Positions 1-6,082 of a DNA stretch of 33,762 bases are shown in pieces. The notes below the pieces were generated by a model. That model did not search any database. It saw nothing but the letters and a program-made list of their open reading frames with translations, and was not told the origin of the DNA. The position numbers and the translations under genes were made by a program. Location: assembly GCA_003223395.1 (NCBI GenBank), contig QHUZ01000064.1:1-33762 (forward strand), in the 5' to 3' direction. Origin of the DNA: Gemmatimonadota bacterium. Its GTDB lineage: Bacteria; Gemmatimonadota; Gemmatimonadetes; Gemmatimonadales; GWC2-71-9. How positions within the stretch are numbered: position 1 is the first letter of the stretch; each line of letters begins with the position of its first letter.

Positions 1-1929
1 GAGCTGTACCGCGGTCCCCTGCTCGACGGGTTCTTCATCTCCGGCGCCGTCGAATTCGAGCGCTGGCTGGACGATGAGCGATCGCGCCGGCAACGTGCCG
101 TCGCGGATTGTGTGCGACGCCTCGTGGAGCAGGCCGAGGCCGACGGCGATCTCGCGGCGGCCGTCGCGTGGGCCCGGCGCGCAGCGCAGTTGGCCCCGCA
201 CGACGAAGACGCCGTCCGCCGGCTCATTACGTTGCTCGATCGGTCGGGCGATCGGGCTGCAGCGGTCGAGATCTTCGATGACTTCGCGAAGCGCCTCGCC
301 GCCGACCTGGACACCGAGCCGGCCGCCGAAACCAAGGCTCTGCTCGCGGCCATTCGAGCCCGCGAGACGGCTGCCCCCGTGCAGCTGGTGGCCTCTCTTC
401 TCAACAATGCGCGGCGGCGGACCTGGCTCGCCTGGGCTGGTGTGGTGGCACTTGCGACGCTCGGGCTGGGCCTGGGGGGCCTGCTCTGGCCGCGTCCCAC
501 GACGCCGGTCAACCGCTCGTTAGCCGTATTGCCCATCGAGAACTTCTCCGGCGACTCACTGCAGTCCTGGTTCGCGGACGGGATGACCGAAGCGCTGATC
601 ACGGATCTCGGGCGCATTAGCGCGTTGCGCGTGCCCTCGCACGGCGCGGTCGTGGAGTTGAAACGCGCCGCGACTTCCCCCCGCGAGATCGGGGCCGCGT
701 TGCATGTGGCCGCGTATCTCGAGGGTGGGGTGCAGCGCTCCGGCGACCAGGTCCGGGTCGATCTCCGCCTCGTGGACGCGGCGTCCGGTTATCAGCTGTG
801 GGCCGGCCGGATCGAAGCGCCGCTCGCCAATCGCTTCGCGATCGAGGACAGCGTCACGCGGCGCGTCGTGGCGGCGCTCCACGTGCCGCTGACCGCGGCG
901 GAGGCGCGCCTGCTCGCTACCGCTCCCACCGCGAGTCCCGAAGCCTACGATCTCTACCTGCGTGGGAGGATTCGCATTCGGCATGAGACTCGGGCGGACG
1001 ACTCGGCGGCGATCGGATTGCTCGAACGGGCCGTGGCACTCGACCCGAGTTTCGCGGCCGCGCACGCCCAACTGGCACGCGCGTACGGACTCCGGGTCAG
1101 TCAGTTCGCGCGCGAGGACACCGCCGCGCGCGAGCAGGCCTACCTCGAGGTTGAAAAAGCGCTCCAGTTGAACCCAGACCTGGCGGAGGCTCATTGGGCC
1201 CGGGCGTTCGTGTTGTGGGACGTCGCGCCGGGTTTCCAACACGAGCGAGCCATTCAGGAGGACCGGCGGGCGATCGCCCTGAACTCGAACCTTGGCGAGG
1301 CCCATCAGCACCTGGGAGTCATCTATCTGCACATTGGGCTCTTGGACCAAGCGGTCGCCGAGTTCCAGCATGCCCTCGCGCTCAATCCCTTCGATGTCAA
1401 CGCGCAACGGCGAATCGGCATTGCCCAGATCTATCGCCTGCGCTACGAAGCCGGGCTCGCTGCCATCCGGCAGGCGGGACCGGAGGCGAACACGGGGTTG
1501 GGGAGTTATCAGGTCGCCTGGGCGTTGCTTTACGTTGGCCGCAAGGACGAGGCATCGGCGTTTATCGAGACGTACCTGCGGGCGCATCCTGAAGACCTTG
1601 GCGGCGTCGTGCGCAGCACGCGAGCGATCCTGCGCGCCCAACTCGGCGATACGCGTGGTGCCGAGGCCGATATCCAGCAGGCCATCGTGTCCGGACGCGG
1701 TTTCGTTCATTTCCACCACGCCGAGTACAACATCGCGTCGGCGTACGCGATTCTCGGCCGGCCGGGACCGGCAGTGGTGTGGCTGCGGCGCGCCGCCGAC
1801 GAGGGGTGGCCGTGCTATCCGTACTTCGTGAATGATCCCAACCTCGCCGCGATCAGGCAGGATCCGGCGTACATCACGTTTATCACACATTTGAAAGCGC
1901 AGTGGGAGCGGCTGCGCGCAACAGAATGA
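1..1929 (+). CDS. BTAD / TolB-like / TPR membrane-anchored regulator-like protein (5' end cut by window)
   Basis: The frame is open from base 1, so the true start lies upstream; 642 residues are visible. Visible residues 1-120 look like a bacterial transcriptional activator domain (BTAD): YRGPLLDGFF near the start, then helical repeats. In this family a winged-helix DNA-binding domain normally precedes BTAD, and here it would fall outside the window. Residues about 141-163 form one hydrophobic segment (TWLAWAGVVALATLG), probably a membrane anchor. Residues about 170-300 resemble the TolB-like/FlgO-like N-terminal domain found in CadC- and adenylate-cyclase-type regulators (SLAVLPIENFSGD, then FADGMTEALITDL). 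The rest is TPR repeats (YDLYLRGR, AIGLLERAVALDPSFAAAHA and later units). Inference: a membrane-bound transcriptional sensor. Its TGA stop overlaps the ATG of the following receptor gene, so the two are probably coupled. An internal GTG at 112 is not the start, because BTAD homology runs through it. Confidence 0.85.
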   Translation, partial: ELYRGPLLDGFFISGAVEFERWLDDERSRRQRAVADCVRRLVEQAEADGDLAAAVAWARRAAQLAPHDEDAVRRLITLLDRSGDRAAAVEIFDDFAKRLAADLDTEPAAETKALLAAIRARETAAPVQLVASLLNNARRRTWLAWAGVVALATLGLGLGGLLWPRPTTPVNRSLAVLPIENFSGDSLQSWFADGMTEALITDLGRISALRVPSHGAVVELKRAATSPREIGAALHVAAYLEGGVQRSGDQVRVDLRLVDAASGYQLWAGRIEAPLANRFAIEDSVTRRVVAALHVPLTAAEARLLATAPTASPEAYDLYLRGRIRIRHETRADDSAAIGLLERAVALDPSFAAAHAQLARAYGLRVSQFAREDTAAREQAYLEVEKALQLNPDLAEAHWARAFVLWDVAPGFQHERAIQEDRRAIALNSNLGEAHQHLGVIYLHIGLLDQAVAEFQHALALNPFDVNAQRRIGIAQIYRLRYEAGLAAIRQAGPEANTGLGSYQVAWALLYVGRKDEASAFIETYLRAHPEDLGGVVRSTRAILRAQLGDTRGAEADIQQAIVSGRGFVHFHHAEYNIASAYAILGRPGPAVVWLRRAADEGWPCYPYFVNDPNLAAIRQDPAYITFITHLKAQWERLRATE

Positions 1930-4900
1930 ATCCCGCCGCACGCGCCCTCGTTCTGCTCCTCCTCGGCGCCGGGCCGCTCGCGGGCCAGGGTGTGACGACG
2001 GCGTCCATTCGCGGTACGGTGCTCGGAACCGACGGCACGCCCATCGATGTCGCGGCCATTCAGATCACCAACGTATCCACTGGGGCGCGCTGGCAGGCCG
2101 TCACGAGCACGGCCGGACGCTATTTCGTCGATGGCGTCGACGTCGGCGGGCCGTATGAGCTGGAGGTGCGCCGCGTGGGCTTTCGGCCGCTGCGGCGGAC
2201 CGGCATCACGCTCAGCTTGGGCCAGCGACTCGTCGCCGACTGGGCGCTGGAGCCCGCTGCTACTGAGCTCGAGCCGGTGACGGTCGAGGCCGCGGCCGAC
2301 CTCATTGGCCGCAGTGGTCGCGCCGGGCCTGTGGTCGTGGTCTCGGAGTCGACGCTCGCACGACTGCCCACGCTCACCCGGAATTTCGCGGACCTGGCGA
2401 TCCTGAGTCCCAACGCGGCGCTGCGGCCCCTGGGCGGAGTATCGATCGGCGGTCAGAATCAGATGTACAACGCCATCCGCATCGACGGCGGCGAGAACGC
2501 CGACCAGTACTACGGGCGGGAGCCGGGCGGCGCGAGCCCGCATGGTGGATTGCCGCAGGTCCTGCCCCGCACCATTTCGCTCGAAGCGGTGCACGAGTTC
2601 CAGGTCCTCGTCACGCCGTTCGACGTGCGCGAAGGAGGGGTTGCGGGCGGTGTGCTTAGCGCGGTGACGCGCTCCGGGTCGAACGTCGCACAGCGGTCCG
2701 TGTTCGTCTCCCTTGCGAGTCAGGACATCGCCGGCGGCGGCGCGGCGGCACCCGACGTCACGACCTGGCAGTGGGCCGGCACGGCGAGCGGGCCCATCGT
2801 GCGCGATCGAGTCCACTACTTCGCGAGCGCCGACATTCAGGCTCGCATGGTGCAGGATCACGGTCCGTTCATCAGCGACACCGCGGGCGGAGCGGACATG
2901 GCGCTGATCGGCATTCCGTACGCGGATGCGGTGCGGTTCCAGCAGATCCTCGCCGACTCGTTCGCTCTGAATCCGGGGACGCTGGGGCCCGTCAACGGGC
3001 GAGTACCTGCGCAGGACTTGTTCGCGAAGGTCACCGCGCAGATCGGCGGCGGCAGTCATCTCGAAGTGTCGCACCACTATGCGCACGCCGCGCGCCGCAA
3101 CTTTCTCGATGCCGGCCTGATCGGCTACGTTCCCGGCGCCATATCTGCTCGCGGCCTCGGCTACTACGGGCTGTCCTCGGTTGGCGAAGAGGACCGCACG
3201 ACGGCGCAGACCTCGCGCCTCATCTGGCACGCCCAGGTGAACAGCCGCTGGTCGAACGAGCTGATCCTGAGCTACGAGTGGCTCCGGGACGACTGCATTC
3301 CGAACGCCACCTTTCCTCGCATTGTCGTGCTGACTGGCGGGAACCAACTCGTCGCCGGCCCCAACTTTTTTTGTCCGACCGACACCGTCACGCAGCGCGC
3401 TTTCGAGTTCACGGACAACGTCACGTTCGCGTTGGGCCGGCATGTCGTGACGCTGGGCACGCACGACGAGCTGTTGCACTTCCATGACGCCATCCTGCAG
3501 CAATCACCAGGCTTCTGGACATTCCCCTCACTCGATTCGCTGGCGGCTGGCCGGGCGCAGCGGTACGAACGCTCACTCCCCGGTCCGTTGGGCGCGGGCG
3601 TCGATTTCTCGGTGCGCCAGGCGGGCGCGTACCTGCAGGATTCGTGGTCGCCGAGCGCGCGGCTCCTGGTGGCAATGGGAGTGCGGCTCGACGTGCCATT
3701 CCTCCCCGACAGGCCCGCAACGATCGCCGCGCTGACGGATTCGTTCGGGGTCGAACCGGGGAGCAAGCCGACAGGCAACGCGCTGTGGTCACCGCGCGTG
3801 AGCGCGACGTACCGCCCCGGAGGCGACGACCGCACGGTGCTGCGCGGCGGGATCGGCTTGTTCGGCGGCCGGCCGCCTTACCGGTGGGTCGGAAACATCT
3901 ACCGCGACGGCGGGCTGCAAGAGGAGCTGCTCGTGTGTCGCCGTCCGGCGGTGCCCGTGTTCAATCCAAGCAACCAACCTGCGAGGTGCTTGGACAGCAC
4001 TGGACCGGTGCCCGCGGTGAGCTTCATCGACCGCGCAGTCAGGTTTCCGCAGAACCTCAAGATCGCCTTGGGCTTTGATCGGGTGCTCACCAGCGGCCTC
4101 CTTGCCACCCTGGAACTGCTCTACACGCACGGCGTCAAGGAGTTGTACTTCGCCGATGTCAACCTTCAGCCGCCGGCCTCGGTGGAAGCGGGAGAGGGCG
4201 GTCGCGCCATGTACGGCACGATCGACCCGAGCGGCAACCCGGCCATCGCGCATCCCTATCGACGTGACACGACGCTGCTTCAGGTGATTCGGGTCTCGAA
4301 CCGGAGCGGGGACCAGGCGTACTCCGTCGCGGCGCGATTGGAGCGACGATTCCGGAGCGGTCGCGTCAGCGCAACCTACGCGTACGCGCATGCGCGCGAT
4401 CTCTTCTCCCTGAACAACTTCAACGCGCGGCCGACCCTGCAGGGCACGCCGCTCGACGGGACGCTCGAAGGCCGGCGCCTGGCGACGTCCTTGTTCGACA
4501 CGCCCCATCGGGTCACGATCACGGCGACGTTCCAACTCCCCTTCAACATCGGGGCGTCGTTGCTGTACAGTGGCAGCTCGGGAACACCTTTCACCTACAT
4601 CGTCAACGGCCACGCGAACGCCGACGGGATGGGGGAGCGGGTTGTCAAGAACGACATCGTGTACGTGCCGCGGAATTCGGGCGACGTCACACTCGCACCG
4701 GGAGCGAGTTACGCCCAGCTCGATTCTTTAATAGAGTCGGAGCCCTGTCTGCGCGAGCAGCGCGGGCGGATCCTGCGGCGTAACAGCTGCCGCAATCCCT
4801 GGGTCGGCGGATTGAACGCACGGCTAACCAAGCTAGTGGGGCTGCGGAACGGACAGTCGTTGGAGATCGGTGCGGACGTCTTCGACGTCCTGAACCTGCT

Positions 4901-5084
4901 CAACGCGCGTTGGGGCCAGTACCGATACACGGTGTTGGGGCCCTCCGTGCAGCTGCTCACCCTGCGTGGCTACGACGCCGCGAACCAGCGCGGTATCTAC
5001 GCACCGATCCGAGTGGTGAGGAATCGGGTCCTCGAGGATGCGTCGCACTGGCGGGCTGTACTCTCCGCGCGGTATCGCTTCTGA
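1926..5084 (+). CDS. TonB-dependent outer-membrane receptor with carboxypeptidase-regulatory-like N-terminal domain
   Basis: The product is 1052 residues from the ATG at 1926, which overlaps the upstream stop as ATGA; an earlier ATG at 1902 in the same frame is less likely. An N-terminal signal peptide (MNPAARALVLLLLGAGPLAG) is followed by a carboxypeptidase-regulatory-like beta-sandwich (SIRGTVLGTDGTPIDVAAI, residues about 25-110). Next comes a plug domain (LPTLTRNFADLAILSPN, then IRIDGGENADQYYG) at about 145-260. The long beta-barrel ends in the aromatic-rich LSARYRF, typical of outer-membrane proteins inserted by BamA. Family knowledge: such receptors take up large ligands such as oligosaccharides, peptides or siderophores, using TonB energy. 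The substrate cannot be told from sequence. The adjacent regulator suggests the pair responds to, and imports, the same nutrient; that is inference. Confidence 0.88.
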   Translation: MNPAARALVLLLLGAGPLAGQGVTTASIRGTVLGTDGTPIDVAAIQITNVSTGARWQAVTSTAGRYFVDGVDVGGPYELEVRRVGFRPLRRTGITLSLGQRLVADWALEPAATELEPVTVEAAADLIGRSGRAGPVVVVSESTLARLPTLTRNFADLAILSPNAALRPLGGVSIGGQNQMYNAIRIDGGENADQYYGREPGGASPHGGLPQVLPRTISLEAVHEFQVLVTPFDVREGGVAGGVLSAVTRSGSNVAQRSVFVSLASQDIAGGGAAAPDVTTWQWAGTASGPIVRDRVHYFASADIQARMVQDHGPFISDTAGGADMALIGIPYADAVRFQQILADSFALNPGTLGPVNGRVPAQDLFAKVTAQIGGGSHLEVSHHYAHAARRNFLDAGLIGYVPGAISARGLGYYGLSSVGEEDRTTAQTSRLIWHAQVNSRWSNELILSYEWLRDDCIPNATFPRIVVLTGGNQLVAGPNFFCPTDTVTQRAFEFTDNVTFALGRHVVTLGTHDELLHFHDAILQQSPGFWTFPSLDSLAAGRAQRYERSLPGPLGAGVDFSVRQAGAYLQDSWSPSARLLVAMGVRLDVPFLPDRPATIAALTDSFGVEPGSKPTGNALWSPRVSATYRPGGDDRTVLRGGIGLFGGRPPYRWVGNIYRDGGLQEELLVCRRPAVPVFNPSNQPARCLDSTGPVPAVSFIDRAVRFPQNLKIALGFDRVLTSGLLATLELLYTHGVKELYFADVNLQPPASVEAGEGGRAMYGTIDPSGNPAIAHPYRRDTTLLQVIRVSNRSGDQAYSVAARLERRFRSGRVSATYAYAHARDLFSLNNFNARPTLQGTPLDGTLEGRRLATSLFDTPHRVTITATFQLPFNIGASLLYSGSSGTPFTYIVNGHANADGMGERVVKNDIVYVPRNSGDVTLAPGASYAQLDSLIESEPCLREQRGRILRRNSCRNPWVGGLNARLTKLVGLRNGQSLEIGADVFDVLNLLNARWGQYRYTVLGPSVQLLTLRGYDAANQRGIYAPIRVVRNRVLEDASHWRAVLSARYRF

Positions 5085-5088
5085 TATC

Positions 5089-6082
<994 letters not shown>

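Follow-up and report, generated by a model that had tools for sequence, protein, structure and literature searches.

The regulator gene at the start of the stretch of DNA analysed here belongs to a family whose main partner is a head-to-head lipoprotein gene, not the TonB-dependent receptor gene that follows the regulator in this genome; coupling to a receptor is real but occasional. The stretch, referred to here as the window, has 33,762 nucleotides (G000:C55:1-33762) and comes from a genome of 3.41 Mb in 123 contigs. As judged from modelled folds, the regulator is a SARP-CadC chimera among the transmembrane transcription regulators. The preferred reading, with a probability of roughly 0.6, is that one transmembrane protein acts as a local switch; it would primarily control the head-to-head lipoprotein gene, and its operon would have gained a receptor gene in some lineages.

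Locus and gene extent

The features of the window that are relevant here are the following.

1..1929, + strand: regulator gene, 5' part outside the window (642-aa ORF running in from the window's 5' edge)
4..357, + strand: BTAD domain, making up the SARP head's C-terminal half (Pfam PF03704; AfsR SARP fold match on the L036 orthologue)
421..492, + strand: single predicted transmembrane helix (hydropathy scan; arginines on its N-terminal side)
508..879, + strand: periplasmic alpha/beta subdomain, CadC-like (model of window 496-1926; NCBIfam CadC below cut-off)
895..1923, + strand: periplasmic TPR region, terminating in a TPR end-of-group domain at about 1723-1884 (Pfam, NCBIfam, model)
1926..1929, + strand: ATGA, in which the receptor start and the regulator stop overlap (ATG 1926-1928, TGA 1927-1929)
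1926..5084, + strand: Oar-like TonB-dependent receptor, 1052 aa (Pfam; tree)
2004..2249, + strand: CarboxypepD_reg domain of the receptor (Pfam, E 1.8e-16)
3309..4904, + strand: OMP_b-brl_4 (PF25183) barrel part of the receptor (Pfam, E 8.8e-39)
5098..6027, - strand: malate-dehydrogenase-like gene (named by eye), a synteny anchor common to L041 and L047

The 5' end of the regulator gene, 354 bp long, lies on contig C33 of the same genome (L005 506 down to 153, minus strand). Over the window's initial 152 bases, 151 positions agree with the minus strand at the end of C33, which is 99% identity, while the next best genomic match of the window start has 69%. From this overlap, with its one mismatch, we infer that C33 and C55 are to be joined, which gives a regulator of 760 residues from the ATG at L005:506. 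The eight best orthologues of this protein (58-68% identity) all align from residue 1, and seven of them reach residue 759 inside one contig, the eighth, L043, being cut by a contig end. Identity is similar on the two sides of the join, 72%/68% to L036 and 77%/55% to L041. The gene run in L041 is the same as in the window's genome, with an sdh-like gene, lipoprotein/regulator units and an mdh-like gene (sdh and mdh named by eye).

Tandem arrays of two or three lipoprotein/regulator units are seen in L036, L038, L041, L045 and L046 as well as in C33 plus window 1-6027, and in L041 and the window's genome the array is flanked by the sdh-like and mdh-like genes. Contigs C7, C33, C55 and C66 of the genome all end within genes of this regulator family; the assembly therefore tends to break at such genes.

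Domain organization and fold of the regulator

The first-pass annotation had described a protein with one transmembrane segment, BTAD on one side and TolB-like plus TPR domains on the other. Its BTAD and TPR parts stand: Pfam finds BTAD at residues 2-119 of the window ORF (E 1.5e-14) and several TPR families above cut-off, and the hydropathy scan finds one hydrophobic segment, at residues 259-282 of the joined protein, immediately after three arginines. The position of these arginines, N-terminal of the helix, suggests that the N-terminus is inside. The TolB-like part has been replaced, since Pfam returns no TolB domain at E<=1 and the region is CadC-like by profile and structure; the CadC fold accounts for the region, which may still bear some likeness to TolB.

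A DNA-binding domain upstream of the window had been left as a point to check, and it is present on the C33 side, as part of a SARP head supported by profile and fold. A profile of 19 heads matches EmbR (E 1.9e-7) and AfsR (E 3.7e-6) across the whole head. In the model of the L036 orthologue (mean pLDDT 86.1), the stretch 1-246 superposes on the AfsR SARP domain 8k60_J with Z 17.4 over 231 aligned residues at 4.5 A. The BTAD match over cut-off, together with this fold match on the orthologue, corresponds to the SARP anatomy of an OmpR-type winged helix followed by BTAD; Pfam Trans_reg_C by itself gives no match in the joined window protein and stays under its cut-off in L026. For the part of L036 after the transmembrane helix, the top match of all rows is the CadC periplasmic domain 3ly8 (Z 23.8, 302 aligned, 3.8 A). 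The window's own periplasmic half, modelled with pLDDT 88.8 and pTM 0.88, has CadC 3lya as its first match (Z 22.5, 296 aligned, 3.5 A), and the next unrelated structure rows, at about Z 20, cover the TPR part only.

The DNA-binding domain and the transmembrane segment thus occur in one protein with a periplasmic CadC fold, the anatomy of a transmembrane transcription regulator, and the first-pass proposal of a one-protein membrane regulator holds for this single 760-aa chain of SARP head, one transmembrane helix and periplasmic part. The NCBIfam CadC equivalog NF007540 reaches E 2.4e-6 but only 26.7 bits against a cut-off of 400; the regulator has the CadC sensor fold and is not CadC. A match of the NCBIfam 'antisigma' model NF052375 over the BTAD region was dropped at 25 bits against a cut-off of 100, and no sigma or anti-sigma gene is seen by eye beside the regulator, as the first-pass annotation had supposed.

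Two relatives have departures of their own. In L028:7762-9954, a regulator with the same head family carries an FGE-sulfatase domain in place of the TPR sensor. The C89-type regulator of a congener (L065 / L218) lacks the usual first residues, and operator-like sequence continues directly into the head; the missing start is either a deletion or an assembly error.

The head-to-head lipoprotein gene

The family was represented by 89 distinct TM-type regulators, which came from the window's genome, from scanning named genomes for similarity and from a family survey of 26 genomes. Rows whose head stretches are identical entered the counts a single time, so that a near copy like L050, on the same contig as L040, is not counted twice. 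Six rhizobial and Chloroflexi TM-type rows were set aside before the neighbour count, leaving 83, of which 77 have the upstream gene in view. Gene calls, lipobox calls and TM calls were made by in-house rules, not by SignalP or TMHMM.

The upstream gene is divergent in 61 of the 77 regulators, against 75/236 other large genes in the same loci, and it is divergent with a lipobox in 41/77 against 13/236 (41/83 with the six set-aside rows); the other 36 regulators have no divergent lipobox gene under the rules used. Among non-redundant regulators (<60% head identity), 26/54 have such a gene. The partner of the window regulator is a head-to-head PD40 beta-propeller lipoprotein gene that starts at L005:652, 145 bp away. 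This gene and the L027 lipoprotein gene were missed automatically and found by eye, and the count of 41 excludes both.

When 45 partners were scanned, beta-propellers were found as PD40 in 8, Kelch in 5 and RCC1 in 1; the rest are subtilases, fn3 proteins or proteins with no match, and many match nothing. Because of this spread, with so few propellers among 45 partners and many unmatched, the idea of a split TolB, in which the regulator would hold a TolB-N-like domain and the PD40 partner the propeller, was dropped. In the rhizobial relatives (L087-L096, L102), the facing gene often encodes a secreted protein whose VWA-like DGSGS motif was recognized by eye, and several of these relatives have two GTTA boxes 11 bp apart.

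Predicted operator and promoter

Nine orthologous intergenic regions have a common TTTGCC - TA[CG]CTT pair oriented toward the regulator. Between this pair and the regulator start codon, CGTCACC/CGTGACC/CGTCACC are spaced at 11 bp, with the first copy degenerate in the window. The window regulator has three predicted repeats at 11 bp beside its gene. The heptamers of other subfamilies differ in sequence, and their pitch is mostly also 11 bp. At least three GTNA at 11 bp occur in 27/85 regulator upstream regions (four of the 89 rows were left out for want of upstream DNA) against 1/417 clean control regions and a mean of 0.01/85 in Markov shuffles; the remaining 58 regulators have no run of three. 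Runs of three are absent at spacings 9 and 10 and occur once at spacing 12. In the non-redundant set, at least three repeats are found in 10/56 and at least two in 20/56, against 2/56 with at least two at 10 bp.

A -10-like element resembling TAAACT/TAACTT lies toward the lipoprotein gene, about 8-10 bp from the operator edge. The cited part of PMC10936776 gives as a rule for SARP promoters that a -10 lies to one side of the repeats, at a distance of about 8-10 bp, and that of PMC5930380 describes three heptamers with 4-bp spacers for PimR; the predicted operator and its -10-like element fit both. No promoter geometry toward the regulator/receptor operon was found downstream of the repeats. 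The window's own lipoprotein-side -10 is poor, with GAGTTT where the orthologues have CAAACT, and this weakens the operator claim for the window locus.

In a scan of the window's genome with the window's repeat, the only exact match was the site itself, and one site with one mismatch lies beside the L027 regulator. A wider regulon was considered and rejected, five two-mismatch sites against one control match being taken as noise. Control by the regulator would thus be local, not global.

The receptor and its coupling to membrane sensors

The window receptor has both CarboxypepD_reg and the OMP_b-brl_4 barrel over cut-off, as expected of an Oar-like receptor, while TonB_dep_Rec_b-barrel is weak and below its cut-off. 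Neither the STN domain of FecA-type receptors nor the TonB plug PF07715 is among the Pfam families returned at E<=1; the plug is returned for the relative L059. In 60 other genomes, nine congeners included, there is no relative of the receptor above about 51% identity.

The receptor gene overlaps the regulator gene by four bases, as the first-pass annotation had described. The same genome has five PF25183 receptors, and two of them, in the window and on C89, come directly after a TM regulator, both with an ATGA overlap. An ATGA-type overlap is also present in a congener, and the C89-type pair recurs in G030 and L054. A survey of how often such regulators abut receptors, suggested at the outset, showed that they do so occasionally. 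A receptor is directly downstream in 6/74 TM-type regulators against 1/482 control genes, so the adjacency is more than chance (Fisher p 2.9e-5, with related loci treated as independent). L065 (same contig as L218/G030:C407) is excluded from the six, and the sole control gene with a receptor next, L157, which encodes a kinase-TPR protein at a 78-bp gap, was retained in the control count. On the other side, the six closest orthologues of the window regulator with the next gene in view have no receptor there; its place is taken by a thioredoxin-like gene (by eye) or a gene for 319 aa. In L041 and L047, regulator units at the same locus are directly followed by the mdh-like gene, and tables of BTAD against PF25183 for 26 genomes, read by eye, show tight regulator-receptor pairs only in the window's genome.

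Seen from the receptor side, 40 receptor genes were examined (the window's not among them), and 5 of the 38 with the upstream gene in view lie directly after a one-TM sensor. Two of these sensors are of the SARP type (L218, L026) and three are Ser/Thr kinases with TPR matches (L216, L217, L175), which substitute for the regulator. These one-TM kinases (L216:4042-7290, L217:3733-6336 and L175:9192-12248) are three in one genome and lie 4-7 bp from, or overlap, an Oar-like receptor gene. A tree of 36 rows places the SARP-coupled receptors from the window's contig C55, C89, G030 and L054 in one group (100/100), and its sister is the G013 group holding the three kinase-coupled receptors (100/100). 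The L050 receptor is elsewhere in the tree, outside the main group, and two changes are therefore required to account for SARP coupling.

A different neighbour is found before 13/38 receptors, which directly follow an amino-acid-permease-like gene (L220, L221, L223-L226, L229, L232, L234, L235, L237, L240, L241). The APC label was borne out by a permease search for 13/14 genes, with Pfam checked for L220 alone; the label of L222 in the receptor tree was not confirmed. This adjacency is a hint that Oar-like receptors of that class may take up peptides or amino acids. In L056, a 1131-aa downstream gene considered as a receptor proved to encode a tricorn-like protease: at L056:9995-16134, a regulator of the family overlaps this secreted protease gene by 4 bases.

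Proposed mechanism and alternatives

In the switch proposed here, a periplasmic signal, sensed directly or via the lipoprotein or the receptor, would alter the regulator's periplasmic domain. The SARP heads would then bind the 11-bp-spaced heptamers and turn on the lipoprotein promoter, and the same binding, at sites downstream of the regulator's predicted promoter and ahead of its start codon, would restrain the regulator operon. The receptor, an occasional addition to the unit, would be translated by coupling from the regulator mRNA, so that receptor and sensor stay matched.

The first-pass annotation had instead suggested the regulator's own receptor as a target. If the receptor were the main target, the regulator would report nutrient or receptor traffic and drive its own operon, receptor included. 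The shared operon with its ATGA overlap fits this, as do the recurrence of the coupling in L054, L050/L040, L055, L066 and G030 and the kinases found in the sister receptor clade; in L149, L059 and L083 the receptor is itself the divergent gene, and in L149 four consecutive 11-bp repeats separate regulator and divergent receptor. However, with a receptor in only 6/74, none next to the six closest orthologues in view, and no promoter-like arrangement beyond the repeats that faces the operon, this reading is doubtful; the conserved partner is the divergent lipoprotein gene, and it is for this gene that the predicted operator is placed. The receptor might also be a chance neighbour that landed in the gap separating the regulator from the mdh-like gene, with its transcription due merely to read-through from the regulator promoter. 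Such an arrival would explain the receptor-free units of L041 and L047 and the lack of close relatives of the receptor in the 60 other genomes, but a second pair with the same overlap in the same genome, its recurrence in G030 and L054, the kinase sensors in the regulator's place in the sister clade and the enrichment make it unlikely. Finally, the contig break within the gene, the mismatch in the overlap and the several regulator paralogues of the genome might raise the suspicion of a broken regulator or a contig-end artefact, for example two paralogues wrongly joined. This is very improbable given the gap between 69% and 99% identity for the start, the similar identity to orthologues on either side of the join, and the sdh-like and mdh-like anchors that match L041.

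Beyond the local switch, a more general arrangement is put forward tentatively: a sensor-receptor cassette with exchangeable outputs, in which one-TM sensors with periplasmic TPR, bearing either a SARP or a Ser/Thr kinase head, would be translationally coupled to one Oar-like clade and would read receptor state or cargo, with the beta-propeller lipoprotein as a co-sensor in the SARP form. If true, it would represent a trans-envelope signalling route apart from sigma/anti-sigma signalling. With a receptor clade in which the sensor output differs, transcription factor in one case and kinase in the other, the question whether TonB receptors are able to signal in the absence of a sigma/anti-sigma pair can be put directly. 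Soils commonly harbour Gemmatimonadota, whose regulation has been little studied. For their expanded regulator family, the local switch offers a testable prediction: the DNA site would be heptamers at 11 bp and the target the head-to-head lipoprotein gene.

Comparison with known systems

In FecA/FecR/FecI surface signalling, a TonB-dependent receptor is genetically linked to an inner-membrane regulator. The window has the same kind of linkage, but its receptor has no STN match and no sigma or anti-sigma gene is seen adjacent by eye. SusR-like and hybrid two-component regulators of Bacteroides, as described in the cited part of PMC3878776, are likewise periplasmic-sensing membrane regulators that adjoin TonB-dependent uptake genes. 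In contrast to them, the window locus has no SusD, glycosidase or histidine kinase part, and its DNA-binding domain is a different one; SusR sites in the same account are 67 or 77 bp apart, unlike the spacing of the window repeats.

The regulator is similar to CadC and ToxR-type proteins in having a cytoplasmic N-terminal DNA-binding head, one transmembrane helix and a periplasmic sensor (PMC10269533 and PMC9214523, in the sections cited), and by structure match its periplasmic fold is that of CadC. It differs in its head, a SARP head of winged helix plus BTAD where theirs, in those sections, is a winged helix alone, and in the longer TPR tail of its sensor. Its partner is the divergent lipoprotein, not a co-operonic protein of the ToxS/VtrC kind described there. 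No paper found in a search of the open-licence literature describes a CadC-type sensor that carries a SARP head.

With SARP activators such as AfsR and PimR, to the extent covered by the cited portions of PMC10936776 and PMC5930380, the regulator shares the head fold, the direct heptamers at 11-bp pitch and the one-sided -10, predicted here, at about 8-10 bp. The heptamers themselves are different, and the gene is outside a biosynthetic cluster. The large SARPs in these accounts carry cytoplasmic ATPase/NOD or TPR domains, whereas the window regulator is membrane-anchored and carries a periplasmic sensor.
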